Source of the DNA: Curvibacter sp. PAE-UM
Lineage (GTDB): Bacteria > Pseudomonadota > Gammaproteobacteria > Burkholderiales > Burkholderiaceae_C
NCBI RefSeq assembly: GCF_001432305.1
Contig: NZ_KQ483358.1
Coordinates: 1,780,616-1,844,615, forward strand
Length of the DNA: 64,000 nucleotides
Reading direction: 5' to 3'
Made by a program: the position numbers and the translations under genes. Under the pieces are notes generated by a model. The model saw only the letters and a list, made by a program, of their open reading frames with translations. It was not told where the DNA came from and ran no database searches. Positions 27,535 to 39,819 of the stretch are shown piece by piece (within the stretch, counting starts at the first letter, position 1; the number at the start of each line of letters is the position of its first letter).

Positions 27535-28371
27535 TCAAGCTGCTTTTTCCACGTGCGCCTGGCGCGTGTAGAGGAAGTCGATCACGGCCTTGCGGCAGTT
27601 GATGTAACGCGGGTCTTCGGCCAGCTCCACACGTTTGCGCGGACGCGGCAGGTCCACCGCCAGCACTTCGCCAATGGTGGCGGCCGGGCCGTTGGTCATC
27701 ATCACGATCTTGTCGCTCAGCAGCACGGCCTCGTCCACGTCGTGCGTGACCATCACCACGGTGCTTTTGGTGCGCGCCACGATCTCCAGCAGCTCGTCCT
27801 GCAGCTTGGCGCGGGTGAGTGCGTCCAGGGCGCCGAAGGGTTCGTCCATCAGCAGCACCTGGGGTTCCATGGACAGGGCGCGGGCGATGCCCACGCGCTG
27901 TTTCATGCCGCCCGAGATTTCGCCGGGGCGCTTTTGTGCCGCGGGCGTCAGGCCCACCAGGGCCAGGGCGGCCTCGGTGCGGGCCTTGAGCTGGGCCTTG
28001 TTCTCGGCGGCTGCGCCCGTGCTCTTGCTGCCGGCGCCGAAGACGCGTTCCACGGCGAGGTAGACGTTCTCGTAGCAGGTCAGCCAGGGCAGCAGCGAAT
28101 GGTTCTGGAACACCACCGCGCGCTCGGGGCCGGGGCCGGCGATCTCGCGGTTGGCGCACAGCAATGTGCCGTTGGTGGGCGTGGTCAGGCCGGCGATCAG
28201 GTTGAGCAGGGTGGACTTGCCGCAGCCCGAGTGGCCGATCAGCGCCACGAACTCGCCCTTGGCGACCGTGAGGTTGATGTCGCGCAGCGCAGGGAAGGAG
28301 CCCTTGGCGGTCTTGAAGGTCTGCTCGACGCCCTGGACCTCGATGTACTTGGTGCTCAGTGATTCGTTCAT
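27535..28371 (-). CDS. nrtD: Nitrate ABC transporter ATP-binding protein
   Basis: A 278-residue ABC ATPase with Walker A GHSGCGKST, signature ISGGMKQRVGIARAL, and Walker B VLLMDEPFGALD followed by the switch His in VTHDVDEAV. It belongs to the NrtD/SsuB group that energises uptake of nitrate, sulfonates and cyanate. The position after NrtB and NrtA identifies the substrate as nitrate. It starts 10 bases after nrtB ends. Confidence 0.94.
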   Translation of the reverse strand: MNESLSTKYIEVQGVEQTFKTAKGSFPALRDINLTVAKGEFVALIGHSGCGKSTLLNLIAGLTTPTNGTLLCANREIAGPGPERAVVFQNHSLLPWLTCYENVYLAVERVFGAGSKSTGAAAENKAQLKARTEAALALVGLTPAAQKRPGEISGGMKQRVGIARALSMEPQVLLMDEPFGALDALTRAKLQDELLEIVARTKSTVVMVTHDVDEAVLLSDKIVMMTNGPAATIGEVLAVDLPRPRKRVELAEDPRYINCRKAVIDFLYTRQAHVEKAA

Positions 28372-28381
28372 GACGGACTCC

Positions 28382-29290
28382 TCAGTTTTTCACTTCTTCG
28401 AAGGTGAAGGCGGTGGCCAGCTTGATCAGCGCAAATTCGAGCACCAGGCCGACGATGCCGATCACGAAGATGGCGATGATGATGTTCTTGACGTTGAGGT
28501 TGTTCCACTCGTCCCAGACCCAGAAGCCGATGCCCACGCCGCCGGTCAGCATCTCGGCCGCGACGATCACCAGCCAGGCCGTACCCACGGCCAGGCGCAC
28601 GCCGGTCAGCATGTAGGGCAACACGGCTGGGAAGAGGATCTTGGTGACGATCTTCCATTCCGAGAGCTGCAGCACGCGCGCCACGTTCATGTAGTCCTGC
28701 GGCACGCGCTGCACGCCCACCGCGGTGTTGATGATCATGGGCCAGATGGAGCAGATGAAGATGGTCCAGATGGCCGCCGGGTTGGCGCCCTTGAAGACCA
28801 GCAGGCCGATGGGCAGCCAGGCCAGCGGCGAGACCGGGCGCAGCAGGCTGATCAGCGGGTTGAACATGCGGCTCAGGAAGGTGAAGCGCCCGATCATGAA
28901 ACCGGCCGGGATGCCCACCGCCGCCGCCAGGCCGAAGCCCAGCGCCACACGTTCGAGCGACATCAGCACGTTCCAGCCCACGCCCTGGTCGTTCGGGCCC
29001 TTGCGGTAGAACGGGTCGCTGAAGATGATGAGCGCCTGCTTGAAGGTGTCGGCCGGGCTGGGGATGCTGCTGTTGCTGGTGATGGTCACCAGCGCCCAGA
29101 TGCCCACCAGCAGGGCCAGGCCCAGCACCGGCGGGATCACGCGCAGCCACAGGCCGCGCCAGTCGTAGCCCGGCGTCTTGACGGCCTCCACGGCGGGGGC
29201 TGCCGGGGTCGTTGCCTTTTTCCCGCCGGTGGGCGGGAGGGGAACGGGGGTCGCCCGTTCCAGGGGGGTATGAAACACGGCGCTGACCAT
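28382..29290 (-). CDS. nrtB: Nitrate ABC transporter permease
   Basis: A 302-residue inner-membrane permease with a proline-rich cytoplasmic N-terminus (residues 1-45), six hydrophobic segments, and the EAA loop (RVLQLSEWKIVTKILFPA) that contacts the ATPase. The ATG at 29290 follows AGAGGA; the open frame extending upstream to 30085 runs over nrtA and is a shadow. It lies between nrtA and nrtD. Confidence 0.93.
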   Translation of the reverse strand: MVSAVFHTPLERATPVPLPPTGGKKATTPAAPAVEAVKTPGYDWRGLWLRVIPPVLGLALLVGIWALVTITSNSSIPSPADTFKQALIIFSDPFYRKGPNDQGVGWNVLMSLERVALGFGLAAAVGIPAGFMIGRFTFLSRMFNPLISLLRPVSPLAWLPIGLLVFKGANPAAIWTIFICSIWPMIINTAVGVQRVPQDYMNVARVLQLSEWKIVTKILFPAVLPYMLTGVRLAVGTAWLVIVAAEMLTGGVGIGFWVWDEWNNLNVKNIIIAIFVIGIVGLVLEFALIKLATAFTFEEVKN

Positions 29291-29358
29291 GATGGGTTCC
29301 TCTTTCCTATTCAGTTGAGGACAGAGCAAGCCTGCGGCCTGGTCTGTCCCGCAAGGTT

Positions 29359-30603
29359 TCAGGCTTTGATCTTGAAACTGTCGGCGTACTTCTTCGGGTC
29401 CTTGCCGTCCCAGACCACACCGTCGATCATCTTGCTGGTGCGCATCACGTCCTTGGGCACGGAGGCCTTGGCGGCGGTGGCGGCCTGCTTGTAGATGTCG
29501 ATCTGGTTGATCTGCTTGGCCACGGCCAGGTAGTCCGGGTGCTCTTTCAGCAGACCCCAGCGCTTGTGCTGGGTCAGGAACCACATGCCGTCGGAGAGGT
29601 AGGGGAAGCTCGCCTTGCCGTCGTTGTAGAACTTCATGTGGTTGGGGTCGTCCCAGGTCTTGCCCATGCCGTTCTGGTAACGGCCCAGGATGCGCTGGTT
29701 GATCGCGTCCACGCTGGTGTTGACGTAGCTCTTGTCGGCCACGGTCTCGGCCATCTTCATCTTGTTGGACAGGCTCGCGTCGATCCACTGGCCGGCCTCG
29801 ATGATGGCGGCCGTCACGGCGCGCGCGGTGTTCGGGTACTTCTTGACGAACTCGCCGGTGGTGCCCAGCGCCTTCTCGGGGTGGTCCTTCCAGATGTCCT
29901 GCGTGGTGACCGCGGTGACGCCGATGCCGTCGATGATGGCGCGGTGGCCCCAGGGCTCGCCCACGCAGTAGCCGTCCATATTGCCCACGCGCATGTTCGC
30001 CACCATCTGGGGCGGCGGCACGGTGATGACCTTGGCGTCCTTCATGGGGTTGATGCCGGCCGAGGCCAGCCAGTAGTACAGCCACATGGCGTGGGTGCCG
30101 GTGGGGAAGGTCTGGGCAAAGGTGTATTCGCGCTTGTCCGTGGCCATCAGCTTGGCCAGGCTGGCGGCGTCCACCGCGCCCTTGTCGGCCAGCTTCTTGG
30201 ACAGGGTGATGGCCTGGCCGTTGTTGTTCAGGCTCATCAGGATGGCCATGTCCTTCTTGGGACCGGAGACACCCAGGTGCACGCCGTAGATCAGGCCGTA
30301 GAGCACGTGGGCCATGTCCAGTTCGCCGTTGACCAGCTTGTCGCGCACACCGGCCCAGCTGGCTTCCTTGCTGGGGATGATCTTCACGCCGTACTTCTGG
30401 TCGATGCCCAGCACCGAGGCCATGACCACGCTGGCGCAGTCGGTCAGCGGGATGAAGCCGATCTTCACTTCCTTCTTCTCGGGTGCATCCGAGCCGGCGG
30501 CGTAGACGGCAGCGCGCAGGGCGGGGTCGATGCCGACGGCGCCGACGGCGGCGGTCTGCAGCACGGCGCGGCGGCTGAGTTTGGCGTTCAGAAGATCAGG
30601 CAT
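29359..30603 (-). CDS. nrtA: Nitrate ABC transporter substrate-binding protein
   Basis: A 414-residue periplasmic nitrate-binding protein. The N-terminus has a twin-arginine-like signal (SRRAVLQTAAVGAVG) and the mature part begins near SDAPEKKEV. The NrtA-typical GFIPLTDCASVVMA and MDGYCVGEPWGHRAI segments are present. The ATG at 30603 has AAGGAG upstream; the open frame to 30717 falls in the leader RNA. First gene of nrtABD. It is the only NrtA/NasS-type protein in this window, and its export signal argues it is a transporter part and not the cytoplasmic NasS sensor. Confidence 0.94.
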   Translation of the reverse strand: MPDLLNAKLSRRAVLQTAAVGAVGIDPALRAAVYAAGSDAPEKKEVKIGFIPLTDCASVVMASVLGIDQKYGVKIIPSKEASWAGVRDKLVNGELDMAHVLYGLIYGVHLGVSGPKKDMAILMSLNNNGQAITLSKKLADKGAVDAASLAKLMATDKREYTFAQTFPTGTHAMWLYYWLASAGINPMKDAKVITVPPPQMVANMRVGNMDGYCVGEPWGHRAIIDGIGVTAVTTQDIWKDHPEKALGTTGEFVKKYPNTARAVTAAIIEAGQWIDASLSNKMKMAETVADKSYVNTSVDAINQRILGRYQNGMGKTWDDPNHMKFYNDGKASFPYLSDGMWFLTQHKRWGLLKEHPDYLAVAKQINQIDIYKQAATAAKASVPKDVMRTSKMIDGVVWDGKDPKKYADSFKIKA

Positions 30604-30634
30604 GAAAGCTCCTTGTGGCGATGAAGAAAACAAG

Positions 30635-30697
30635 AAAGGCGTCCTCACCGAGCCGGCGCGTCTGGATGACGCGGCCATGCTCCGTGGGGACGCCTTT
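30635..30697 (-). terminator. Attenuator terminator in nrtA leader
   Basis: Minus-strand AAAGGCGTCCCCAC pairs with GTGAGGACGCCTTT (30635-30648 with 30684-30697), followed by CTTGTTTTCTT. The U-run is interrupted, so it is weaker than the nirB and carrier versions. The 5' arm overlaps hairpin P2. Confidence 0.75.
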
Positions 30698-30732
30698 GTC
30701 CGTACCGGTGGCCACATCCGCCGTTGGACGGG
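30688..30732 (-). promoter_or_regulatory. ANTAR (NasT) target hairpins in nrtA leader
   Basis: P1 (30712-30732) carries the loop AACGGC (A1, G4) on a stem with one G-U and one mismatch. P2 (30688-30701) is GGAC-AAAGGC-GTCC, also A1 and G4. This is the best match of the three leaders because both hexaloops fit. Confidence 0.84.
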
Positions 30733-30769
30733 CTGCCGGTTGACCGTGAGTGGTCTTGTTAACTGCTAC

Positions 30770-30785
30770 GCAAAGGGCGTGCCAG
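30770..30785 (-). promoter_or_regulatory. Sigma-54 (-24/-12) promoter of nrtABD
   Basis: Minus-strand TGGCACGCCCTTTGC fits TGGCAC-N5-TTGC exactly with GG-N10-GC spacing. The distance to the nrtA ATG is 167 bases, the same as for nirB. Confidence 0.85.
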
Positions 30786-30803
30786 CTTCGGGGTTTTGGG
30801 GGT

Positions 30804-30846
30804 GCTACTGATTTAGTAGCTTTAAACCCATGTCTATCAATGGGTT
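30804..30846 (-). terminator. Two hairpins downstream of nasT
   Basis: GCTACT-GATTT-AGTAGC (30804-30820) and AACCCAT-N8-ATGGGTT (30825-30846) are perfect stems in tandem. They lie between nasT and the nrtA promoter and probably end the nasT transcript, although no strong U-tract follows. The same short palindromes may be family repeats. Confidence 0.5.
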
Positions 30847-30884
30847 ACCGAGGTCCGTGCGCTGAAGGGGGTGATGCGCCGGAA

Positions 30885-30899
30885 TGGTGCAGTGCACCA
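30885..30899. promoter_or_regulatory. NtrC-like palindrome upstream of nrtA promoter
   Basis: TGGTGCAGTGCACCA is a perfect palindrome about 100 bp upstream of the nrtA -24 box. Its half-sites (TGGTGCA, TGCACCA) are those of NtrC enhancers, but they face the opposite way with one base between, so the match to a classical NtrC site is partial. Confidence 0.5.
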
Positions 30900-30921
30900 A
30901 AAGGAGATGCTGTGCGCTGCT

Positions 30922-31566
30922 CTAAAGCAGATCGGCCACGTCGAGCATGCGCTGCGCGACCTCGGCCAGTTTCATGCCCTTGTCCATGGCGGTCTTGCGC
31001 AGCTTCTCGTAGGCCAGCTGTTCGCTCAGGCCCTGGCGCTGCATGAGCAGGCCCTTGGCGCGGTCGATGGTCTTGCGGTCCTTGAGCTCGGCGCTGAGTT
31101 CGTCGAGCTCGTTGCGTGTGACGGCCAGTTCCTGGCGCAGGGCCTGCTCGTGCTGGAAGCGCGCCAGGGCCACGTCCAGGATGGGGCGGATGCGCTCGGC
31201 CGACAGGCCGGCCACGATGTAGGCCGTCACGCCCGCGGCCACGGCGGCGCGCACGTGCGAGGTGTCCTGGTCGTTGGTGAACATGACGATGGGGCGCGGT
31301 GCCTCGCGCGTGGCCATCACCACGTGCTCCAGCGCGTCGCGCGCGTCGCTCTCGGCGTCAACGATCACCAAATCGGGTTGCAGCTGCGCGAGGCGTTCGT
31401 TGAGGAAGACGTCGGCCGGCAGCGAGGCGACCAGGTTGAAGCCGCTCTCGAGCAGGCCGATGCGCAGGCTGCGCGAACGGTCGGCCTGCTGCAGGGCGTC
31501 TTCGTCCCCGGGGTCGCCCACCCCCAGGTCCGAGGTCACCACCACGATGCGCAAGGCTTCATTCAT
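30922..31566 (-). CDS. nasT: ANTAR-domain response regulator, nitrate antiterminator NasT
   Basis: A 214-residue RNA-binding regulator. Residues 5-125 form a receiver-like domain (LVIVDAESDA, IVMFTND, AGVTAYIVAGLS). A coiled-coil linker leads to the C-terminal ANTAR domain with KTIDRAKGLLMQRQGLSE and AYEKLRKTAMDKG. ANTAR dimers bind paired hexaloop hairpins in leader RNA and block terminators. The ATG at 31566 is preferred; a TTG at 31596 is the only upstream option. It is transcribed toward nrtA, and three matching RNA targets lie in this window. NasS, its usual partner that holds it inactive without nitrate, is not encoded here. Confidence 0.92.
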   Translation of the reverse strand: MNEALRIVVVTSDLGVGDPGDEDALQQADRSRSLRIGLLESGFNLVASLPADVFLNERLAQLQPDLVIVDAESDARDALEHVVMATREAPRPIVMFTNDQDTSHVRAAVAAGVTAYIVAGLSAERIRPILDVALARFQHEQALRQELAVTRNELDELSAELKDRKTIDRAKGLLMQRQGLSEQLAYEKLRKTAMDKGMKLAEVAQRMLDVADLL

Positions 31567-31635
31567 ATAGGGATCAACTTGCAAGAAATGCGCCAAAACA
31601 AGGCGGCAGGTTTGCCGCTTGGCATAGAATTATCC

Positions 31636-31729
31636 CTGCTCCGGGGTGTCGTCCGCGCAAGTGGAGGGCTGAGATGGTCGAACCGAACCCGTGAACTTGA
31701 CTCGGATCATGCCGACGTAAGAAGAGCTG
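31636..31729 (+). promoter_or_regulatory. TPP riboswitch (THI box) aptamer
   Basis: The conserved parts of the thiamine pyrophosphate aptamer are in order: P1 GCTC (31638-31641) pairing with GAGC (31724-31727), GGGGTGTC, GGCTGAGATGG, then AACCCGTGAACTTGA and CGGATCATGCCGACGTA. CTGAGA and the TGAAC/GGAT-AT-CCG core are the ligand-binding bases. It is followed within 70 nt by a LuxE-like gene. High confidence in the class. Confidence 0.95.
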
Positions 31730-31753
31730 TTAGCCAGGCCCCCGCCTCGCCAC

Positions 31754-31792
31754 ACCTTTCGGAGCACGCGCCGCCGGCGCATCAGGAAAGGT
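31754..31792 (+). promoter_or_regulatory. Riboswitch expression platform sequestering the ribosome site
   Basis: ACCTTTC (31754-31760) is perfectly complementary to GAAAGGT (31786-31792), which contains the Shine-Dalgarno of the LuxE-like gene (AGGAAAGG). The enclosed GCGCC-GCC-GGCGC would form an inner hairpin. When TPP is bound this stem should hide the ribosome site, so control is probably at translation start. No strong U-tract is seen. Confidence 0.65.
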
Positions 31793-31796
31793 TTTC

Positions 31797-32903
31797 GTGG
31801 CAGAAGCAGTACACCCATCGTCGCAACCAGCTTCGGGCATCGTTCCCGATCTGCTGGCGTTCATCGCGCGCCCGGATGAGGGGGAAAACAGCTTCAACGC
31901 CCTGGCCCTGCGCCTCTTTGCCCACCAGTTCCAGCACAACACCGCCTTCCAGAAGTTCTGCCAGCAGCGCGGCCGCACGCCGCGTACCGTGAAAAGCTGG
32001 TGCGACATTCCGGCCGTGCCCATCAACGGCTTCAAGGACCTGACGCTGAGCTGTCTGCCGCCCGAGGCCTGTGAGCGCGTTTTCATGACCAGCGGCACCA
32101 CGCGCGGCGACGTCAAGGGCCGGCACTACCACCCGCAGCTGCAGGTCTACGACCTGTCGATGACCTTGAACTTCCGCCAGCGTTTCATGGGCGGGTCTGA
32201 TCGTGTGCGTATGGGCCTCCTTTTTCCGAGCGAACAGCTGATGCCCAATTCCTCGCTGGCGCATTACCTGGCGCTGGCCCTGCACAACTTCGGTACACCC
32301 GAGAGCCGCTATTACCTGGACACCGAAGGCCTGCAGGTGGACGCGCTCTGCGCCACGCTGGCGCAGGTGCAGGCCAGCGGCGAACCTTTTGCGCTGCTGG
32401 GCGCGAGCTACAGCTTCGTGCACCTGATGGATGCGCTGCAGGCGCGCGGCCTGCAATTCAAATTGCCGGCCGGCAGCCGCTTGCTCGACACCGGTGGTTT
32501 CAAGGGCCAGTCGCGCGAGATGGACATGGACGCGTTCTACGACGCGCTCGCATCGACTTTCGGCGTGCCGCGCAGCGCCTGCATCAATATGTACGGCATG
32601 ACGGAACTCAGTACGCAGTTCTACGATGCGGGCAATGCCGTGCTGCCGGCCGTCAAATCCGGTCCGCACTGGATCCGCACGCGCGTGCTGGACCCGCTCA
32701 CCGGGCAGGAGATGCCCCGGGGTGAGCGAGGCATCCTGGCGCATACGGACCTGGGCAACTTCAATTCCGTCACCACCATCCTCACCGAGGACGTGGGCGT
32801 GGCAGTGGAGGGTGGTTTCCTGCTGCTGGGCCGCGCCCAGGGCGCGCAGGCCAAGGGCTGCTCGCTGGCGGTGGATGAATTCCTGCGGGCGGCACAGTCA
32901 TGA
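31797..32903 (+). CDS. LuxE-like acyl-protein synthetase (acid activation)
   Basis: A 368-residue ANL-superfamily enzyme. TSGTT at residues 98-102 is the adenylate-forming P-loop, YGMTELSTQFY follows near residue 265, and KGCSLAVDEF near the C-terminus carries Cys355, the position acylated in LuxE. It should activate a carboxylic acid with ATP, load it on Cys355 and pass it to the LuxC-like reductase. The start is a GTG at 31797 after AGGAAAGG, inside the riboswitch platform. Its stop overlaps the luxC-like ATG. No luciferase (luxAB) is present, so the acid is not for light; the TPP switch points to a thiamine-related acid. Confidence 0.88.
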   Translation: MAEAVHPSSQPASGIVPDLLAFIARPDEGENSFNALALRLFAHQFQHNTAFQKFCQQRGRTPRTVKSWCDIPAVPINGFKDLTLSCLPPEACERVFMTSGTTRGDVKGRHYHPQLQVYDLSMTLNFRQRFMGGSDRVRMGLLFPSEQLMPNSSLAHYLALALHNFGTPESRYYLDTEGLQVDALCATLAQVQASGEPFALLGASYSFVHLMDALQARGLQFKLPAGSRLLDTGGFKGQSREMDMDAFYDALASTFGVPRSACINMYGMTELSTQFYDAGNAVLPAVKSGPHWIRTRVLDPLTGQEMPRGERGILAHTDLGNFNSVTTILTEDVGVAVEGGFLLLGRAQGAQAKGCSLAVDEFLRAAQS

Positions 32904-34351
32904 AAGTCACCGCCGGTTATCTGCCGGGCCTGAACTCCAGCGAGGTGCAGTGGCACACGCTGGGCTTTGGCGCCGGTGCACAGCAGGTCGATGTGCTGGT
33001 GCCGCAGCTCACGCCAGCCCAGCTGCACACGCTGGCCGCGCATGTGCGCAGCCAGGGGCGCACGCAACTCAAGCCCATGCCGGTCACGCAGATCATTGCC
33101 GCCATCGACCGCGCCATCGAGCGCCTGCTCAACCCCGCCGATCCTTACCGACTGGAACTGGAGCTGCTGCTGCCACGCATCAGCGGCTTCGACGCCGAGA
33201 TGGTGCGCCTGGGCCTCAACGCCTACCTCAAGACCTTCCGCGCGCCGCAACTGCAGCGTTTCGTGGCCGAGGACTTCAGCAACCCCAAGCTGCTCGACGA
33301 GTTCCAGCCACGGGCCAAGGGCGGCATGGCGCGCGCACTCGGCCCCGAACTGCTGGTGCACGTCTGGGCCGGCAACGTGCCGGGCCTGCCGCTGTGGAGC
33401 CTGGTCTGCGGCCTGCTGGTCAAGGCGCCGGCCATCGGCAAGGTGGCCAGCGCCGAGCCGCTGTTCGCTTCCTTGTTCGCGCGCCTGCTGGCCGAGGTGG
33501 AACCGCGCCTGGCCGAGGTGCTGGCCATCGTCTGGTTCAAGGGCGGCGACACGGCCAGCGAGCGCGCGCTGTTTGCCGAAGCCGACACGGTGCTGGCCTA
33601 TGGCGGCAATGACACGTTGACAGCGCTCAGGCAGCAGGTACCGGTGAGCACGCGTTTCCTGCCGCACGGCCACAAGCTCAGCGTGGGCCTGGTCTCGGCG
33701 GCCGCGCTGGACGTGGCCCATGCCCCGGCCACGGCACGCGCCGCGGCGCTGGACGTGGTGCGCTACGAGCAGCAGGGTTGTTATTCGCCGCACACCTATT
33801 ACGTGGCGCGCGGTGGCCGCGTGACGCCGCGCGAGTTCGCGCAGCAGCTGGCCGGTGAGCTGGCCGCACTCCAGCATAAATTTGCGCGCCGCACGCTCAC
33901 GCTGGAAGAATCCGCCAGCGTGGCCGGCTGGCGCCAGGGCCAGGAGCTGCAAGGTTTTGCCGGGGCCGGCGTGGAACTGCTGGGCGACGCCGGTGCCCCC
34001 TGGTGCGTGGCCTATGCTGAGCAGGCCAGCGCCTTGCTGCCCTGCGCGCTGAACCGCACGGTGCAGGTGCAGGCGGTGGACCGCCTGGCGGACACGCTGC
34101 CCCTGCTGGCCGCGCAGCGCGAGGTGCTACAGACCGTGGGCCTGGCCGCTGCGCCGCAGGAACTGCATGCGCTGGCCGAACGGCTGGGCGCGGCCGGTGC
34201 CACGCGCATCTGCGCCCTGGGCCAGATGACCGCGCCCGAAGCCGGCTGGCACCACGACGGGCGTTTCAGCCTGCTGGACCTGGTGCGCATGGTCGAGCTC
34301 GAACAATCGGCCGAGGATGCGGCTGAGGCCTACGCGCCGTACAGGGATTGA
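32900..34351 (+). CDS. LuxC-like acyl-CoA/acyl-enzyme reductase
   Basis: A 483-residue aldehyde-dehydrogenase-fold enzyme of the LuxC family. VWAGNVPGLPLWSLVCG begins the cofactor region, WFKGGD lies mid-protein, and YEQQGCYSPH contains the nucleophile Cys294. LuxC accepts an acyl group from LuxE on this Cys and reduces it with NADPH to the aldehyde. The pair is joined by an ATGA overlap. Its length is that of LuxC. Because the operon is under a TPP riboswitch, the product is predicted to be an aldehyde on the path to a thiamine precursor alcohol; this is inference. Confidence 0.87.
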   Translation: MKVTAGYLPGLNSSEVQWHTLGFGAGAQQVDVLVPQLTPAQLHTLAAHVRSQGRTQLKPMPVTQIIAAIDRAIERLLNPADPYRLELELLLPRISGFDAEMVRLGLNAYLKTFRAPQLQRFVAEDFSNPKLLDEFQPRAKGGMARALGPELLVHVWAGNVPGLPLWSLVCGLLVKAPAIGKVASAEPLFASLFARLLAEVEPRLAEVLAIVWFKGGDTASERALFAEADTVLAYGGNDTLTALRQQVPVSTRFLPHGHKLSVGLVSAAALDVAHAPATARAAALDVVRYEQQGCYSPHTYYVARGGRVTPREFAQQLAGELAALQHKFARRTLTLEESASVAGWRQGQELQGFAGAGVELLGDAGAPWCVAYAEQASALLPCALNRTVQVQAVDRLADTLPLLAAQREVLQTVGLAAAPQELHALAERLGAAGATRICALGQMTAPEAGWHHDGRFSLLDLVRMVELEQSAEDAAEAYAPYRD

Positions 34352-34352
34352 T

Positions 34353-35111
34353 ATGAGCGCTGCCCCCTTCCTCGACATGCAGCAGGTGAGTTACACCTTC
34401 CCCGGCTGGCCGCCGGTGGTGCAGCGTGTGGACTGGGACATCGCGCCCGGCGAGTTCCACTGCCTGGTGGGGCGCAGCGGCTGCGGCAAGACCACCCTGC
34501 TCAAGCTGGCCGCGGGCCTGCTGCAACCCGATGCGGGCACGGTGAGCCTGCAGGGCCAGGCGCTGCACGCGCCCGGCCCCGGCACAGGTTTTGTGTTCCA
34601 GCAGCCCACGCTGCTGGACTGGCTCACTGTGCTGGACAACGTGCTGCTGCCCCTGACCCTGCAGCGCACGCCGACAGACGTCGACCGCGCACGCGCCGAA
34701 CAGCTGCTGGCGCAGATGGGCCTGAGTGCTTACCTGCGACACCATCCGCGCCAGTTGTCCGGCGGACAGCAGAGCCGCGTGGCGATAGCTCGCGCGCTGC
34801 TGCTCGATCCGCCCATCCTGCTGATGGACGAGCCTTTCGCCGCGCTCGATGCCATCACGCGCGAGGAACTGCAGGACGAGTTGCAAGCCATGTGCCGTGC
34901 GCGCGGCACCTCGGTGTTTTTTGTCACGCACGACATCGCCGAGGCGGTCTACCTGGCCGACCGCGTGGCGGTGATGGACGCCGGCCGCATCCGCCATGAC
35001 ATCCGTGTGGACCTGCCGCGCCCGCGCGGACGGGACCTGCGCTACAGCGCGGCCTTCAACGCGATCTGCGCCGAACTGCGGCATGCCATGGACGGGGAGG
35101 GGGCTGAATGA
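34353..35111 (+). CDS. ABC transporter ATP-binding protein (ThiZ/NrtD/SsuB-type)
   Basis: A 252-residue ABC ATPase with Walker A GRSGCGKTT, signature LSGGQQSRVAIARAL, Walker B ILLMDEPFAALD and VTHDIAEAV. The subgroup serves importers of thiamine pyrimidine, nitrate and sulfonates. The ATG at 34353 lies one base after the luxC-like stop; the frame upstream to 34317 is not needed. It overlaps the permease gene (ATGA). Under the same riboswitch, it should energise uptake of a thiamine building block. Confidence 0.9.
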   Translation: MSAAPFLDMQQVSYTFPGWPPVVQRVDWDIAPGEFHCLVGRSGCGKTTLLKLAAGLLQPDAGTVSLQGQALHAPGPGTGFVFQQPTLLDWLTVLDNVLLPLTLQRTPTDVDRARAEQLLAQMGLSAYLRHHPRQLSGGQQSRVAIARALLLDPPILLMDEPFAALDAITREELQDELQAMCRARGTSVFFVTHDIAEAVYLADRVAVMDAGRIRHDIRVDLPRPRGRDLRYSAAFNAICAELRHAMDGEGAE

Positions 35112-35866
35112 TCCGCTACCCGCGTCTTTTGGCTTTCGCCTTGCTGGTCATCCTGCTGCTGGCCTGGGAGTGGGCCGTGTCGGCCTTCAGGTTTTCGCCG
35201 CTGGTGCTGCCCGCGCCCAGCGTGATCGGCGCAGCGTTGCTGCGCGGCCTGCAGACGGGTTATCTCTGGCCGCACGTGGCCCAGACCCTGCTGGAACTGG
35301 GCCTGGGGCTGGCGCTGGGTGTGGCCATGGGTTTTATCGGGGGCGTGTTGCTCGGTGAATCGGCCGTCTTGCGCCGCGTGCTCATGCCCTATGTGGTGAC
35401 CAGCCAGGTGGTGCCGAAGCTGGCGCTGGTGCCGCTGTTCATCGTCTGGTTCGGTTTCGGCACCGTGCCCACGGTGGTCATCACCGCGCTGATCTGCTTC
35501 TTCCCCCTGCTGGAAAACACCTTGACCGGCATCGCCCAGGTTGACGCCGCGCGGCTCGAACTGTTCCGCATGCTGGGGGCAACCCGCTGGCAGACCCTGT
35601 GGCGGCTCAAGGTGCCCGCCGGGCTGCCCGCCATCCTGGCCGGCCTGCGTGTGGCCGTGGTACTGGCCCTGGTGGGGGCGGTGGTGGGTGAGTTCATAGG
35701 CGCCAGCAAGGGCCTGGGCGCGCTGATCATCGCCGCCCAGGGCTCGATGGACACGCCGCTGATGTTTGCCGTGCTGCTGCTGATCACGCTGATCGGCCTG
35801 CTGCTGTACGAGGCCACGCTCTGGATCGAGCGTCGGTTGCTGCGACCCTATTCATCCAACCTTTGA
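35108..35866 (+). CDS. ABC transporter permease (ThiX-like)
   Basis: A 252-residue inner-membrane permease with about six hydrophobic segments and the EAA loop ARLELFRMLGATRWQTLWRL followed by the PAGLPAILAGLRV motif. It belongs with the ThiX/SsuC group. ATGA overlap with the ATPase gene; 10 bp gap to the binding protein gene. Substrate inferred from the riboswitch. Confidence 0.9.
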   Translation: MIRYPRLLAFALLVILLLAWEWAVSAFRFSPLVLPAPSVIGAALLRGLQTGYLWPHVAQTLLELGLGLALGVAMGFIGGVLLGESAVLRRVLMPYVVTSQVVPKLALVPLFIVWFGFGTVPTVVITALICFFPLLENTLTGIAQVDAARLELFRMLGATRWQTLWRLKVPAGLPAILAGLRVAVVLALVGAVVGEFIGASKGLGALIIAAQGSMDTPLMFAVLLLITLIGLLLYEATLWIERRLLRPYSSNL

Positions 35867-35876
35867 GGACGACACC

Positions 35877-36863
35877 ATGAAACGACATTTCCTGCGCACC
35901 TTCGCTGCGCTCGCACTCGGTGCCCTGTGCACCGGCGCCTGGGCCCAGGCCAAGCTGGACAAGGTGACGATCGCCGGCTGGGGCGGCCCCATCTCCGAGA
36001 TCACCAATCTGCTGGTCGAGCCCGACAAGGGCTTCTTCCGCGCGCAGGGCATCGCCATGGTCTTCATGCCCGGCACCGGTGGTGGCGATGCCGTGCGCAA
36101 CCTGCTCAGCGGCCAGGCCGACGTGGCCTTCACCGACCCGGGTTCGCTCTACGCCGCGCTGGACAAGGGCGAGAAGCTGCGCGTGATCTACGACATCTAC
36201 CCGCAGAACATCTTCAACGTGGTGGCGCTCAAGAGCCGCGGTATCAGCAAGCCTGCGGATCTGAAAGGCAAGAAGATCGGCGTCTACAGCCTGTCCAGCG
36301 GCACGCTGACCAATCTGCAGCTTCTGCTGAACCAGGCCGGCCTGAGCGAGAAGGACGTGACCATTGTCGTCACGGGCCTGCTGAACTTCGCGCCGCTGAT
36401 GCAGGGGCAGGTGGACGCCACCGCCGCTACCGACACCGGCCTGCTGGTGGCCCGCGCCAGAGGCGTGGGTGAGGTGAACGTGATGGAAGTGCGCAACTCG
36501 CTCAACGTCTCCAGCGACATCTTCGTGGTGCGCGAGGAAACGTACCAGCAGAAGAAGGACGTGCTCAAGCGTTTCCTGGCCGCTTACCGCGACAGCATGC
36601 AGTGGATGATCAACAACCCGCAGGAAGCCGCCGCGCTGGCGGTCAAGCGCGCCATCAACGGCCAGAACGAAACCGTGAACCTGGAAGTGATCAAGCTGCG
36701 CAATCTCTCCAGCGTCTCGCCACTGACGCAGAAGAACGGGCTGGGTGCCATCGATGTCGACATGCTGCAAAAGGGCGCCGACGCCTGGAAGAAGATCGGC
36801 CTGGTCCAGCGCGACCTCAAGATGAAGGACGTGGTGTCCGCCGACCTGCTGCCCGGTAAATAA
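35877..36863 (+). CDS. ABC substrate-binding protein, NMT1/THI5-like
   Basis: A 328-residue exported protein with a Sec signal (residues 1-24, cut after AWA in LCTGAWAQA). The mature part is NMT1/THI5-like: GGGDAVRNLLSGQADVAF, LKGKKIGVYSLSSGT and YRDSMQWMINNPQEAA. THI5-like binding proteins of TPP-controlled operons usually bind a pyrimidine such as HMP or formyl-aminopyrimidine. Here the presence of acid-reducing enzymes suggests an oxidised relative. RBS GAGGACG precedes the ATG. Confidence 0.89.
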   Translation: MKRHFLRTFAALALGALCTGAWAQAKLDKVTIAGWGGPISEITNLLVEPDKGFFRAQGIAMVFMPGTGGGDAVRNLLSGQADVAFTDPGSLYAALDKGEKLRVIYDIYPQNIFNVVALKSRGISKPADLKGKKIGVYSLSSGTLTNLQLLLNQAGLSEKDVTIVVTGLLNFAPLMQGQVDATAATDTGLLVARARGVGEVNVMEVRNSLNVSSDIFVVREETYQQKKDVLKRFLAAYRDSMQWMINNPQEAAALAVKRAINGQNETVNLEVIKLRNLSSVSPLTQKNGLGAIDVDMLQKGADAWKKIGLVQRDLKMKDVVSADLLPGK

Positions 36864-36865
36864 GC

Positions 36866-37645
36866 ATGAATTTCCAGGGCCAGGTCATCCTCGTCACCGG
36901 CGCCAGCCGCGGCATCGGCGCGGCCATCACGCAGGCTTTTGCGGCCGAGGGTGGCTTCGTGGTGGTGAACTACCTGCGCAACGAGGCCGCCGCCGACGCG
37001 GTGGTGGCGCAGTGCAAGGCGGCGGGTGCTGCAACAGGTGGAGATGCCTGGGCCATTCGCGCCGACGTGAATGACGCCGCTCAGGTGCAGGCCCTGGTGG
37101 CCCAGGTGCAGGCCGAACTGGGCCGCATCGACGTGCTGGTCAACAACGCCTTCGCGCCCTACCGCTTCGACCCCGAACAGCGCAAGCGTTTCTGGGAAAC
37201 CGGGTGGGACGACTACCAGACCCAGTTCGACGGTGCCGTGCGCGCGACGTACAACGTCTGCCAGGCCGTGCTGCCCGGCATGCGCCAGCGCGCGCAGGGC
37301 TGCATCGTCAACCTGGCCAGTGATCTGGTCGAGCGGCCCGTGGTGCCGTATCACGACTACGCAACGGCCAAGTCCGCGCTGGTGGGCTTCAGCCGCAACC
37401 TCGCGGCCGAACTGGGGCCGCTGGGCATCCGCGTGAACTGCGTGGCGCCGGGCCTGGTCTACCCGACCGATGCCAGCCGCGCGACCAAAGAGGATGTGAA
37501 AGAAGCCATCGTGGCGCAGACACCCTTGCGGCGCATCGCCCGGCCTGAAGACGTGGCCGGCCCGGTGCTTTTCCTTGCTTCGGACTGGAGCCGTTTCATG
37601 ACCGGGCAGGTGCTGGTGGTGGACGGCGGGCTGGTGATGAAGTAG
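36866..37645 (+). CDS. SDR-family oxidoreductase, last gene of TPP operon
   Basis: A 259-residue classical SDR. The cofactor motif is VTGASRGIGAAI, NNAFAPYRF replaces NNAG, and the catalytic residues are Ser in NLASDL and Tyr165/Lys169 in YATAK. The C-terminal GQVLVVDGGLVM is family-typical. It begins 3 bases after the binding-protein stop, so it is part of the operon. In the proposed pathway it reduces the LuxC-made aldehyde to the alcohol, completing carboxylate to alcohol conversion; this is an inference. Confidence 0.87.
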   Translation: MNFQGQVILVTGASRGIGAAITQAFAAEGGFVVVNYLRNEAAADAVVAQCKAAGAATGGDAWAIRADVNDAAQVQALVAQVQAELGRIDVLVNNAFAPYRFDPEQRKRFWETGWDDYQTQFDGAVRATYNVCQAVLPGMRQRAQGCIVNLASDLVERPVVPYHDYATAKSALVGFSRNLAAELGPLGIRVNCVAPGLVYPTDASRATKEDVKEAIVAQTPLRRIARPEDVAGPVLFLASDWSRFMTGQVLVVDGGLVMK

Positions 37646-37707
37646 CTTGTCCTGAGGACCGCATAATCGGCAGGGTTCCCTGACGTTCAACCTAGGAAAG
37701 CAAGCAG

Positions 37708-38757
37708 ATGCTGAACAGAGTATTAGGGGCCCTGGTGTTGTGCTGGGCCGGTATGGCGCAGGCGCAGCCTGCGGCGATCCCCCTGGTCGACACGCACATG
37801 CATTTCGAATCGGTTCCCCAGATGAACTTCCATGCATCGCTTGCAATCGCGATCAAGGAGATGAACCGCCGCAACATCCGCATGTCGCTGCTCATGTCGC
37901 CACCACGAGCCAGCTTCTACGCGAGCATCAACCACGACATCGAGGACCTGCTGTTTGCGGCCCAGGCGCATCCAGACCGTTTTGCCGTGCTCGGCGGCGG
38001 CGGATCGCTGACCATCATGATCAACGAAACCCGCCCCGAGGCGGTGGACGAAGCGATGCGGCAGAAGTTTCGCCAGCGGGCCGAGCGCATCATCGCGCTG
38101 GGCGGCGTGGGTTTCGGGGAGATGTTCATCCAGCACCTGTCCCTGCCGGCCATGGGGCCCGGCCACGCCTATTCCAGCGTACCGGCCGACCACCCGCTGC
38201 TCCTGCTGCTGGCCGACATTGCCGCCGAACACGACGTGCCGATCGACATGCACTTCGACATGGTGCCGCAGGACATGCCGCTCCCGCCCATCCTCAAGAG
38301 CCCACCCAACCCGGCCCAGCTCCAGGCCAACCGCGCGGCGTTCGAGCGGCTGCTGGCACACAACCGCAAGGCCAGGATCGTCTGGTCGCACGTGGGCTTC
38401 GAGCCCATCAACACCCGCAACCCGCAGGTGGTCACGGAAATGCTCCAGGCCCACCCCAATCTGTACATGAGCTTCCGCCTCAACCGCGGCGGCCCGCGCA
38501 ACACCATGGCGCTGGAGCCCTCGGGCCAGCTCAGGGGGGGCTGGCTGGCGCTGGTCCAGGCCTTTCCCGACCGTTTCATGCTGGGCAGCGATGCCTTCTA
38601 CGCCCCGACCGGCATTTCCCGCGGTTCCAGCGCGGAAGGCATGGACAACCTGCGCGGTCTGATCGAGCAGCTTCCCCCCGAACTGGCACTCCAGGTGGCG
38701 AGCGAGAACGCGCGGCGCCTCTACAAGCTCAAGCCCGGCCAGCCGGCTGCGAACTGA
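37708..38757 (+). CDS. Exported amidohydrolase-family metal-dependent hydrolase
   Basis: A 349-residue TIM-barrel hydrolase with a Sec signal (residues 1-19, WAGMAQAQP). Metal-site motifs are VDTHMHF at the first strand, DMHFD near residue 183, WSHVGFEP near residue 230 and LGSDAFY near residue 290. The family cleaves C-N, C-O or C-C bonds; the substrate is unknown. It lies 62 bp after the TPP operon's SDR with its own ribosome site AGGAAAG, and could be co-transcribed, but nothing links it to thiamine. An exported amidohydrolase is less common than cytosolic ones. Confidence 0.8.
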   Translation: MLNRVLGALVLCWAGMAQAQPAAIPLVDTHMHFESVPQMNFHASLAIAIKEMNRRNIRMSLLMSPPRASFYASINHDIEDLLFAAQAHPDRFAVLGGGGSLTIMINETRPEAVDEAMRQKFRQRAERIIALGGVGFGEMFIQHLSLPAMGPGHAYSSVPADHPLLLLLADIAAEHDVPIDMHFDMVPQDMPLPPILKSPPNPAQLQANRAAFERLLAHNRKARIVWSHVGFEPINTRNPQVVTEMLQAHPNLYMSFRLNRGGPRNTMALEPSGQLRGGWLALVQAFPDRFMLGSDAFYAPTGISRGSSAEGMDNLRGLIEQLPPELALQVASENARRLYKLKPGQPAAN

Positions 38758-38760
38758 ACC

Positions 38761-39819
38761 ATGCACGATCCGGCCAAGATGCTGATCCTGGGCATCGAAT
38801 CCTCCTGCGACGAAACCGGCGTGGCCCTGGTGCAAAGCCATGGCGGCCCGGTGCCGCAGCTGCTCTCGCACGCGCTTTACAGCCAGATCGAGATGCACCA
38901 GGCCTATGGCGGCGTGGTGCCGGAACTCGCCAGCCGCGACCACATCCGCCGTGTGCTGCCTTTGACCACGCAGGTCATGCAGGAGGCGGGCAAGACACTC
39001 CAGGACATCGACGTGGTGGCCTACACACGCGGCCCCGGCCTGGCCGGTGCACTGCTGGTGGGCGCCGGAGTGGCCTGCGCCTTGGGAGCGGCCCTGGGCA
39101 AGCCGGTGCTGGGCGTGCACCACCTCGAAGGCCATCTGCTCTCGCCCTTCCTGAGCGCCGATCCGCCCGAGTTCCCCTTTGTCGCCCTGCTGGTCTCGGG
39201 CGGGCACACGCAGCTGATGCGGGTGGACGGGGTGGGGCGCTACGAGATTCTGGGCGAAACGATCGACGACGCGGCCGGTGAAGCCTTCGACAAATCGGCC
39301 AAGCTCATGGGCCTGCCGTACCCTGGCGGCCCGGGGCTGGCCAAACTGGCAGAGCAGGGCGACGGCGCGGCCTTCAAGCTGCCGCGGCCGCTCTTGCACA
39401 GCGGCAACCTGGATTTTTCCTTTGCGGGTCTGAAGACGGCCGTGCTGACGCAGGCGCAACGCCTGGGCGGCGAACTCGAGGCACGCAAGGCCGATCTGGC
39501 AGCCTCGACGCAGGCCGCCATCGTCGAAGTGCTGGTGAAGAAATCACTGGCTGCGCTGAAAGAAACGGGGCTGAAGCGCCTGGTGGTGGCCGGTGGCGTG
39601 GGCGCCAACCGCCTGTTGCGCGAACAGCTCAATGCCCAATGCGCCAAGCTCAAGGTGCGCGTTCACTACCCCGAGCTGCACCTGTGCACCGACAACGGCG
39701 CCATGATCGCCATGGCCGCCGCCATGCGCCTGCAGGCCGGCATGCAGGAGGCCACGCGGGCCTACACCTTCGAGGTCAAGCCGCGCTGGCCGCTGGATGC
39801 GATCAGTCAGTCGGTCTGA
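38761..39819 (+). CDS. tsaD: tRNA N6-adenosine threonylcarbamoyltransferase
   Basis: Transfers threonylcarbamoyl to A37 of tRNAs that read ANN codons, with TsaB and TsaE. The 352-residue protein has the ASKHA-fold hallmarks: [22 protein letters not shown], the metal-binding [10 protein letters not shown] and [13 protein letters not shown]. The start at 38761 leaves 3 bases after the previous stop; an ATG at 38779 giving 346 residues fits the family length better. There is no clear ribosome site for either. Confidence 0.96.

Follow-up and report, generated by a model that had tools for sequence, protein, structure and literature searches.

The window analysed here, a stretch of 64,000 nucleotides from the 3.63 Mb genome of Curvibacter sp. 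PAE-UM, carries a thiamine pyrophosphate (TPP) riboswitch followed by six tightly packed genes in the order luxE, luxC, ATPase, permease, substrate-binding protein (SBP) and short-chain dehydrogenase/reductase (SDR). We propose, with a probability of about 0.6, that this is a TPP-repressed operon which imports an oxidised pyrimidine and reduces its acid group to hydroxymethylpyrimidine (HMP), and thereby salvages the pyrimidine half of thiamine. A narrower form of the proposal, which we hold a little less firmly and still favour, is an undescribed salvage in which 4-amino-2-methylpyrimidine-5-carboxylate would be imported and a LuxE/LuxC acyl-protein relay, with the SDR, would add four electrons to yield HMP, replacing ThiC in some bacteria. 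As the predicted product, HMP is well supported by the genomic context. To our knowledge, the six core genes include no named thiamine gene.

In the proposed scheme, scarce TPP would lead the riboswitch to free the luxE start, and the ABC importer with its ThiY-like SBP would bring in the oxidised pyrimidine, most likely the 5-carboxylate named above. LuxE, using ATP, would activate the acid as an acyl-AMP and then as a thioester on Cys355, from which the acyl group would pass to Cys294 of LuxC and be reduced to the aldehyde with NADPH. The SDR would reduce the aldehyde to HMP, and ThiD and ThiE would turn HMP into thiamine phosphate. Carriage of the acyl group by those two cysteines is established for LuxC/LuxE; the switching, the direction of the reactions, the cofactors and the serial action of the three enzymes we infer.

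The original prediction, made from the sequence letters, had described a TPP aptamer and a packed series of LuxE-like, LuxC-like, ATPase, permease, THI5-like binding protein and SDR genes, and this composition was confirmed by RF00059 and, for every gene, by Pfam (Table 1). The riboswitch ends 56 nt before luxE, LuxE and LuxC overlap by 4 nt, the permease and the SBP are 10 nt apart and the SBP and the SDR 2 nt, such that all neighbouring genes of the operon are joined by short overlaps or gaps of 10 nt or less. The ATPase probably starts one base past the LuxC stop, at ATG 34353, the longest frame beginning at 34317. The catalytic residues that had been pointed out also bore scrutiny. In alignments selected from the 71 loci described below plus the window, the LuxE TSGTT motif (residues 98-102) and Cys355 were invariant in 41/41 sequences and LuxC Cys294 in 40/40, and both cysteines align with those of the solved LuxC-LuxE complex 7xc6, in a match that spans most of both proteins. 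The earlier remark that no luciferase is present held as well, in that a Pfam scan of the nine proteins at 29359-38754 showed neither a LuxD transferase nor a LuxAB luciferase. The operon thus shares with luminescence LuxC/LuxE the same two families and the aligned catalytic cysteines, and the acid-to-aldehyde chemistry is expected to be alike. Unlike the luminescence enzymes, it sits behind a TPP riboswitch, has an importer and an SDR as partners, and scores far under the NCBIfam equivalogs for long-chain fatty acids (LuxE 75.2 bits against a cut-off of 550, LuxC 89.8 against 750). The SDR scored 301.8 bits against NCBIfam NF006393, above its cut-off of 292. A defence role was also considered and set aside, LuxE and LuxC having no PADLOC match.

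The aptamer is the sole Rfam match in the window at the gathering threshold, its score being exactly the gathering score of RF00059, 54.3 bits, and most of its columns are identical across the window and eight close relatives. Two further TPP sites were found in the genome, one upstream of thiC and the other upstream of a thiO-like gene preceding thiG (ThiC and ThiG were assigned by model match, thiO by eye). Between the aptamer and luxE lies a hairpin that would pair the Shine-Dalgarno sequence and the GTG start. In the nine sequences made up of the window and the eight relatives, all 5/5 pairs of its outer helix and 5/7 pairs of its middle helix were invariant and its loop varied. Covariation lends the hairpin no support, since 88.2% of cells were paired in the nine sequences and 87.4% in shuffles. 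Translational control of luxE by the riboswitch is plausible.

Evidence for a role in thiamine metabolism comes from the recurrence of the riboswitch and the gene order. A LuxE scan of genome contigs gave 55 loci, and in 53 of them a TPP riboswitch lies upstream; the other two (L096, L097) start at a contig edge. Of 50 genomes matched by coordinate and strand, 48 had the riboswitch within 800 bp upstream, and in L068 and L082, both Ramlibacter, it lies 0.9-1.0 kb upstream with ThiD between; of the other five loci, L073, L087 and L088 are riboswitch-positive. Among the family loci the riboswitch was present at 15/16. Several of the relatives' TPP sites fall under the Rfam gathering score; the E values of these sites, each in its own search, were all 1.8e-6 or lower. 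The LuxE profile was matched by 22 of the 398 genomes of a phylum sample, six at 598 bits or more and the next at 94, and the riboswitch was found at all six strong loci, including 3/3 that were newly fetched. At the distant LuxE loci that were fetched, a TPP riboswitch was found within about 1.5 kb in 0/14. Seven such loci (L112-L116, L118, L119), from one family of the phylum sample, hold distant LuxE/LuxC relatives of 25-30% identity with no TPP riboswitch nearby. The original prediction had named genes lacking the riboswitch in most relatives as the finding that would speak against it; what was found is the reverse, and the riboswitch linkage together with the gene order is far beyond chance.

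Carriers among the 55 loci include Polaromonas, Ramlibacter, Limnohabitans, Bosea, Azospirillum and Azorhizobium, as well as Domibacillus, Peribacillus, Desulforamulus and Melghirimyces; among named relatives, the window comes closest by its operon to Curvibacter and Hylemonella (Comamonadaceae). Of the 200 genomes in a family sample, 20 matched LuxE. In 17 of them the match was strong (E 1e-118 or better), and it is these 17 that also have a strong LuxC; the three weak matches (G028, G154, G196; loci L040-L042) were dropped. All six genes occur in order at 63/71 fetched loci with an operon-type LuxE, across Beta- and Alphaproteobacteria and Bacillota, two genomes being counted twice in the 71 (L024/L051, L025/L050). 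Of the eight remaining loci, five reach a contig end (L026, L033, L047, L066, L073) and three truly differ, L039 (taken up below) among them. In an alphaproteobacterial metagenome-assembled genome (MAG), no ATPase gene matches inside the operon (L071, 9001-14083). In Melghirimyces (L089, 8899-12269), the riboswitch is followed by luxE, luxC and the SDR, and no ABC gene matches in the 19-kb locus. As this last locus retains only luxE, luxC and the SDR, these three look like the enzymatic core, leading from acid to aldehyde to alcohol, with uptake separate or the acid internal. In a tree of LuxE, LuxC and SDR the five Bacillota rows can group beside most Alphaproteobacteria; the support of this grouping is only 69, and transfer of the operon between phyla is therefore suggested, not shown.

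The branch of thiamine synthesis to which the operon belongs is indicated by its company, for it is clustered with thi genes in nine loci. In L030, L068 and L082 thiD lies between the riboswitch and luxE, and thiE follows 0.2-0.4 kb past the SDR; in L037, L038, L086, L092 and L096 a convergent thiD adjoins the SDR, with thiO-thiG beyond it; and in L034 thiD and thiO-thiG are found a few kb away. The known TPP-riboswitch thiamine operons (thiC; thiO-thiS-thiG-thiE) share the riboswitch class, and in the first three loci the six genes travel with thiD and thiE. In Ramlibacter paludis XY19, the two TPP sites detected head facing operons, one with thiO-thiS-thiG (thiS by eye) and the other with thiD-luxE-luxC-ATPase-permease-SBP-SDR-thiE; a ThiC search of this draft genome gave no match. 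Here the six genes complete an otherwise whole thiamine cluster, at the place where a source of pyrimidine would be needed. The presence of thiD and thiE inside or after the operon in three loci, together with a ThiY-like SBP, therefore points to the pyrimidine branch.

The complement of thiamine genes was counted in 59 carriers: G000, 48 of the 50 contig-scan genomes (G204 and G223, with the operon on short contigs, were omitted) and 10 of the 16 other family carriers, from which duplicates (G014, G145), congeners (G147, G167) and genomes less than 90% complete (G048, G093) were omitted. ThiM matched in 29/59 at E 0.001, only 11/59 being real by score (four in two pieces, one just under the cut-off), and 18 matches of 34 bits or less were dropped as weak; no real match was thus found in 48/59, and the window genome scores just 20 bits against TIGR00694, whose cut-off is 256.4. 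Thiamine pyrophosphokinase (TPK) was found in five of the 59, all Bacillota, with no PF04263 match in the other 54 or in the window genome. ThiD matched in all 59 carriers, in 57 above the cut-off and in the other two (G209, G222) as fragments. With ThiM and TPK rare and ThiD universal, the known enzymes would leave thiazole alcohol or free thiamine unusable in most carriers and HMP usable in all. Like TPP-regulated ThiM thiazole salvage, the operon would recover a half of thiamine; it differs in that most carriers lack a real ThiM match.

ThiC was present in 48/59 carriers. ThiG matched in 59/59 at E 0.001, and in 57/59 at 250 bits or more; G231 and G237, whose matches did not exceed 25 bits, were dropped as weak. 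Both genes were found in 47 carriers, ThiG without ThiC in 10, ThiC without ThiG in one and neither in one, such that ThiC is usually the one that is missing. In the family sample, ThiG without ThiC was seen in 3/17 carriers versus 4/183 non-carriers (p 0.015), and among genomes with ThiG in 3/16 versus 4/113 (p 0.041), and the loss of both was seen in 1/17 carriers versus 67/183 non-carriers (p 0.013).

Several of our observations weigh against the proposed salvage or its narrower form. The 47 carriers keep both ThiC and ThiG, eight of the 11 ThiC-less carriers are MAGs, in which an absence may be a gap, and the enrichment in the family sample rests on three genomes and becomes 2/15 carriers versus 3/164 non-carriers (p 0.057) at 90% completeness or more; ThiC as such was absent in 4/17 carriers but in 71/183 non-carriers. 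L039 (228-1310, in G093, a genome 55% complete) is a real exception, with a LuxE of 54% identity that is not followed by LuxC and with no TPP match in the 227 bp upstream, which makes it the one family locus missing the riboswitch; the LuxC of that genome (40% identity) lies on a different contig. With the SBP, Foldseek placed the thiamin-bound 4nmy first and ThiY second, and a sequence search placed 3qsl, a putative exported protein, and 4nmy ahead of THI5 and ThiY. NMT1-type proteins take many ligands, SsuA (Z 26.8) is near THI5 (about 28) in the structural comparison below, and Trp35 of the SBP pairs with Trp12 of THI5 but falls one position away in the alignment to 4nmy. The passages of the literature that were available contain no report of the pyrimidine acid, in its free form, from soil or water. 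Finally, we infer 4-amino-2-methylpyrimidine-5-carboxylate as the acid, its role as substrate and its occurrence in the carriers' habitats, and both the ligand and the enzymology are predictions.

Because 47 of the 59 carriers keep ThiC and ThiG, the operon is usually no compensation for a loss, and a general replacement of thiC is ruled out. The expectation that the operon would occur where thiamine biosynthesis is incomplete was therefore borne out weakly, in the 10 carriers with ThiG and no ThiC, and failed in the majority. Judged from their gene complements, most carriers look prototrophic, and the operon is probably in the usual case an extra route that would spare ThiC instead of replacing it.

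The SBP gives a further indication of the ligand. An AlphaFold model of the protein found its best VIA match in ThiY of B. halodurans (3ix1, Z 33.1, 2.2 A over 293 residues, 17% identity), followed by the thiamin-bound 4nmy (Z 31.2), THI5, 3qsl (27.2) and SsuA. These matches, made with a predicted structure, fit a thiamine-related ligand and do not single out a pyrimidine. Trp35 is invariant in 43/43 SBPs; because the alignments at this residue disagree between THI5 and 4nmy, the pocket residues are not established. The operon likewise resembles the ThiXYZ/ThiY importer of pyrimidine vitamers in combining an NMT1/THI5-type SBP with an ABC permease and an ATPase, and differs from it in the low identity of its SBP to 3ix1 and in being linked to enzymes that reduce acids. 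The enzymes known for pyrimidine salvage are YlmB and TenA.

The original prediction had left the carboxylated precursor undecided between thiazole acetic acid, thiamine acetic acid and a pyrimidine 5-carboxylate. The general idea of salvage from such an acid fits the data, and it is the pyrimidine carboxylate that is favoured, by the ThiD/ThiE linkage and the ThiY-like SBP; the other two are disfavoured by the counts of ThiM and TPK. The alternative that survives best, and which we regard as unlikely yet deserving of weight, is that a different acid, be it some other pyrimidine substituted at position 5 or a precursor that does not count among the vitamers, is imported and reduced, with HMP or HMP phosphate as the product. 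What the ThiD/ThiE linkage and the pattern of losses establish is the branch rather than the substrate, and the residues lining the SBP pocket are not established; in favour of the 5-carboxylate, acid-to-alcohol reduction by LuxE/LuxC and the SDR would yield HMP from it directly, with no further step. Salvage of 4-methylthiazole-5-acetic acid to the thiazole alcohol hydroxyethylthiazole (HET) would call for the same chemistry and could be followed by ThiM in 11 of the 59 carriers, but it is improbable given that no real ThiM match was found in the rest, the window genome included, that thiazole is seldom the missing half where ThiG is so widely kept, and that the kinase placed within the operon is ThiD. 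About as improbable, and if anything slightly more so, is a salvage that would turn thiamine acetic acid back into intact thiamine. That acid has been reported as a metabolite in the rat (Amos and Neal 1970, a reference title in PMC7575681), and a thiamin-bound protein ranks first by Foldseek and second by VIA among the matches of the SBP; against it stands the presence of TPK in five Bacillota carriers only, a count that does not extend to ThiK-type thiamine kinases, which were not searched for. Least probable of all is an acyl-reduction system, for fatty aldehydes or otherwise, that together with its transporter was merely placed under a TPP riboswitch, as the homology of LuxE/LuxC to fatty acid reductase is opposed by the riboswitch in nearly all testable carriers of two phyla and at none of the distant LuxE loci, by scores far under the fatty-acid cut-offs and by the clustering with thi genes.

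Table 1. Elements of the riboswitch-headed operon, with positions in the window
Feature	Position	Strand	Evidence
TPP riboswitch aptamer, RF00059	31632..31740	+	cmscan 54.3 bits, model 1-105 (full length)
Probable expression platform: hairpin pairing the Shine-Dalgarno sequence (GGAAAGG) and the luxE GTG start	31749..31801	+	fold -24.8 kcal/mol, z -1.7
luxE-like acyl-protein synthetase, GTG start, Cys355	31797..32903	+	Pfam PF04443, 84.6 bits; profile match to 7xc6 LuxE, E 1.4e-29
luxC-like acyl-thioester reductase, Cys294	32900..34351	+	Pfam PF05893, 298.1 bits; profile match to 7xc6 LuxC, E 3.5e-34
ABC transporter ATPase	34353..35111	+	Pfam PF00005 (ABC_tran), 117.8 bits
ABC transporter permease	35108..35866	+	Pfam PF00528 (BPD_transp_1), 110.8 bits
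Periplasmic NMT1/THI5-type SBP	35877..36863	+	Pfam PF09084 (NMT1), 167.7 bits; AlphaFold pLDDT 89.7
SDR, proposed aldehyde-to-alcohol step	36866..37645	+	Pfam PF13561 (adh_short_C2), 209 bits

Upstream of the riboswitch, on the minus strand, lies a divergent cluster (28368-31596). It comprises a binding protein of the NMT1_2 family (PF13379), a frame that looks by eye like a permease, and a regulator with an ANTAR domain, and is probably a nitrate assimilation cluster with a NasT-type regulator. Similar genes were seen upstream in several Curvibacter/Hylemonella-like loci, and a relative of the ANTAR gene occurs near the operon only in these and in some Polaromonas loci. Downstream, on the plus strand, an Amidohydro_2 protein (37708-38757) begins 62 nt past the SDR, and a relative of it follows the operon in L048 and L054 only (E 1e-10). 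As their relatives are limited to these loci, neither the ANTAR gene nor the amidohydrolase was counted in the unit. Judged by eye from its N-terminus, a further open reading frame (38761-39819, plus strand) resembles TsaD, which acts in tRNA t6A modification.

We found no description in the literature of a TPP riboswitch combined with LuxE/LuxC, in a search that did not cover supplements, subscription journals or RegPrecise, where an earlier annotation is possible. LuxE goes unmentioned in the main text of a regulon survey from 2013 (PMC3766115), and the operon is not described in the accessible parts of that survey or of PMC8839250, PMC10470507, PMC5627462, PMC7780320, PMC7575681 and PMC10881298. 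A search for 4-amino-2-methylpyrimidine-5-carboxylate by name gave no literature match; the compound has been reported from rat urine as a metabolite of thiamine (Neal and Pearson 1964, a reference title in PMC7780320). A 2024 paper on coastal vitamers names HMP, AmMP, FAMP, HET and cHET in its introduction, and no oxidised pyrimidine acid is among them (PMC10881298). We rate the kind of system, salvage of a vitamin precursor, as already known and its chemistry as new.

Thiamine and its halves limit many microbes. If the proposed salvage is true, the carriers would use a breakdown product that others cannot, the pyrimidine acid would be a real environmental vitamer worth seeking in soil and water, and some ThiC-less genomes may have been miscalled as pyrimidine auxotrophs. 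LuxC and LuxE would, moreover, gain a vitamin role outside bioluminescence, as a relay acting on a small heteroaromatic acid.

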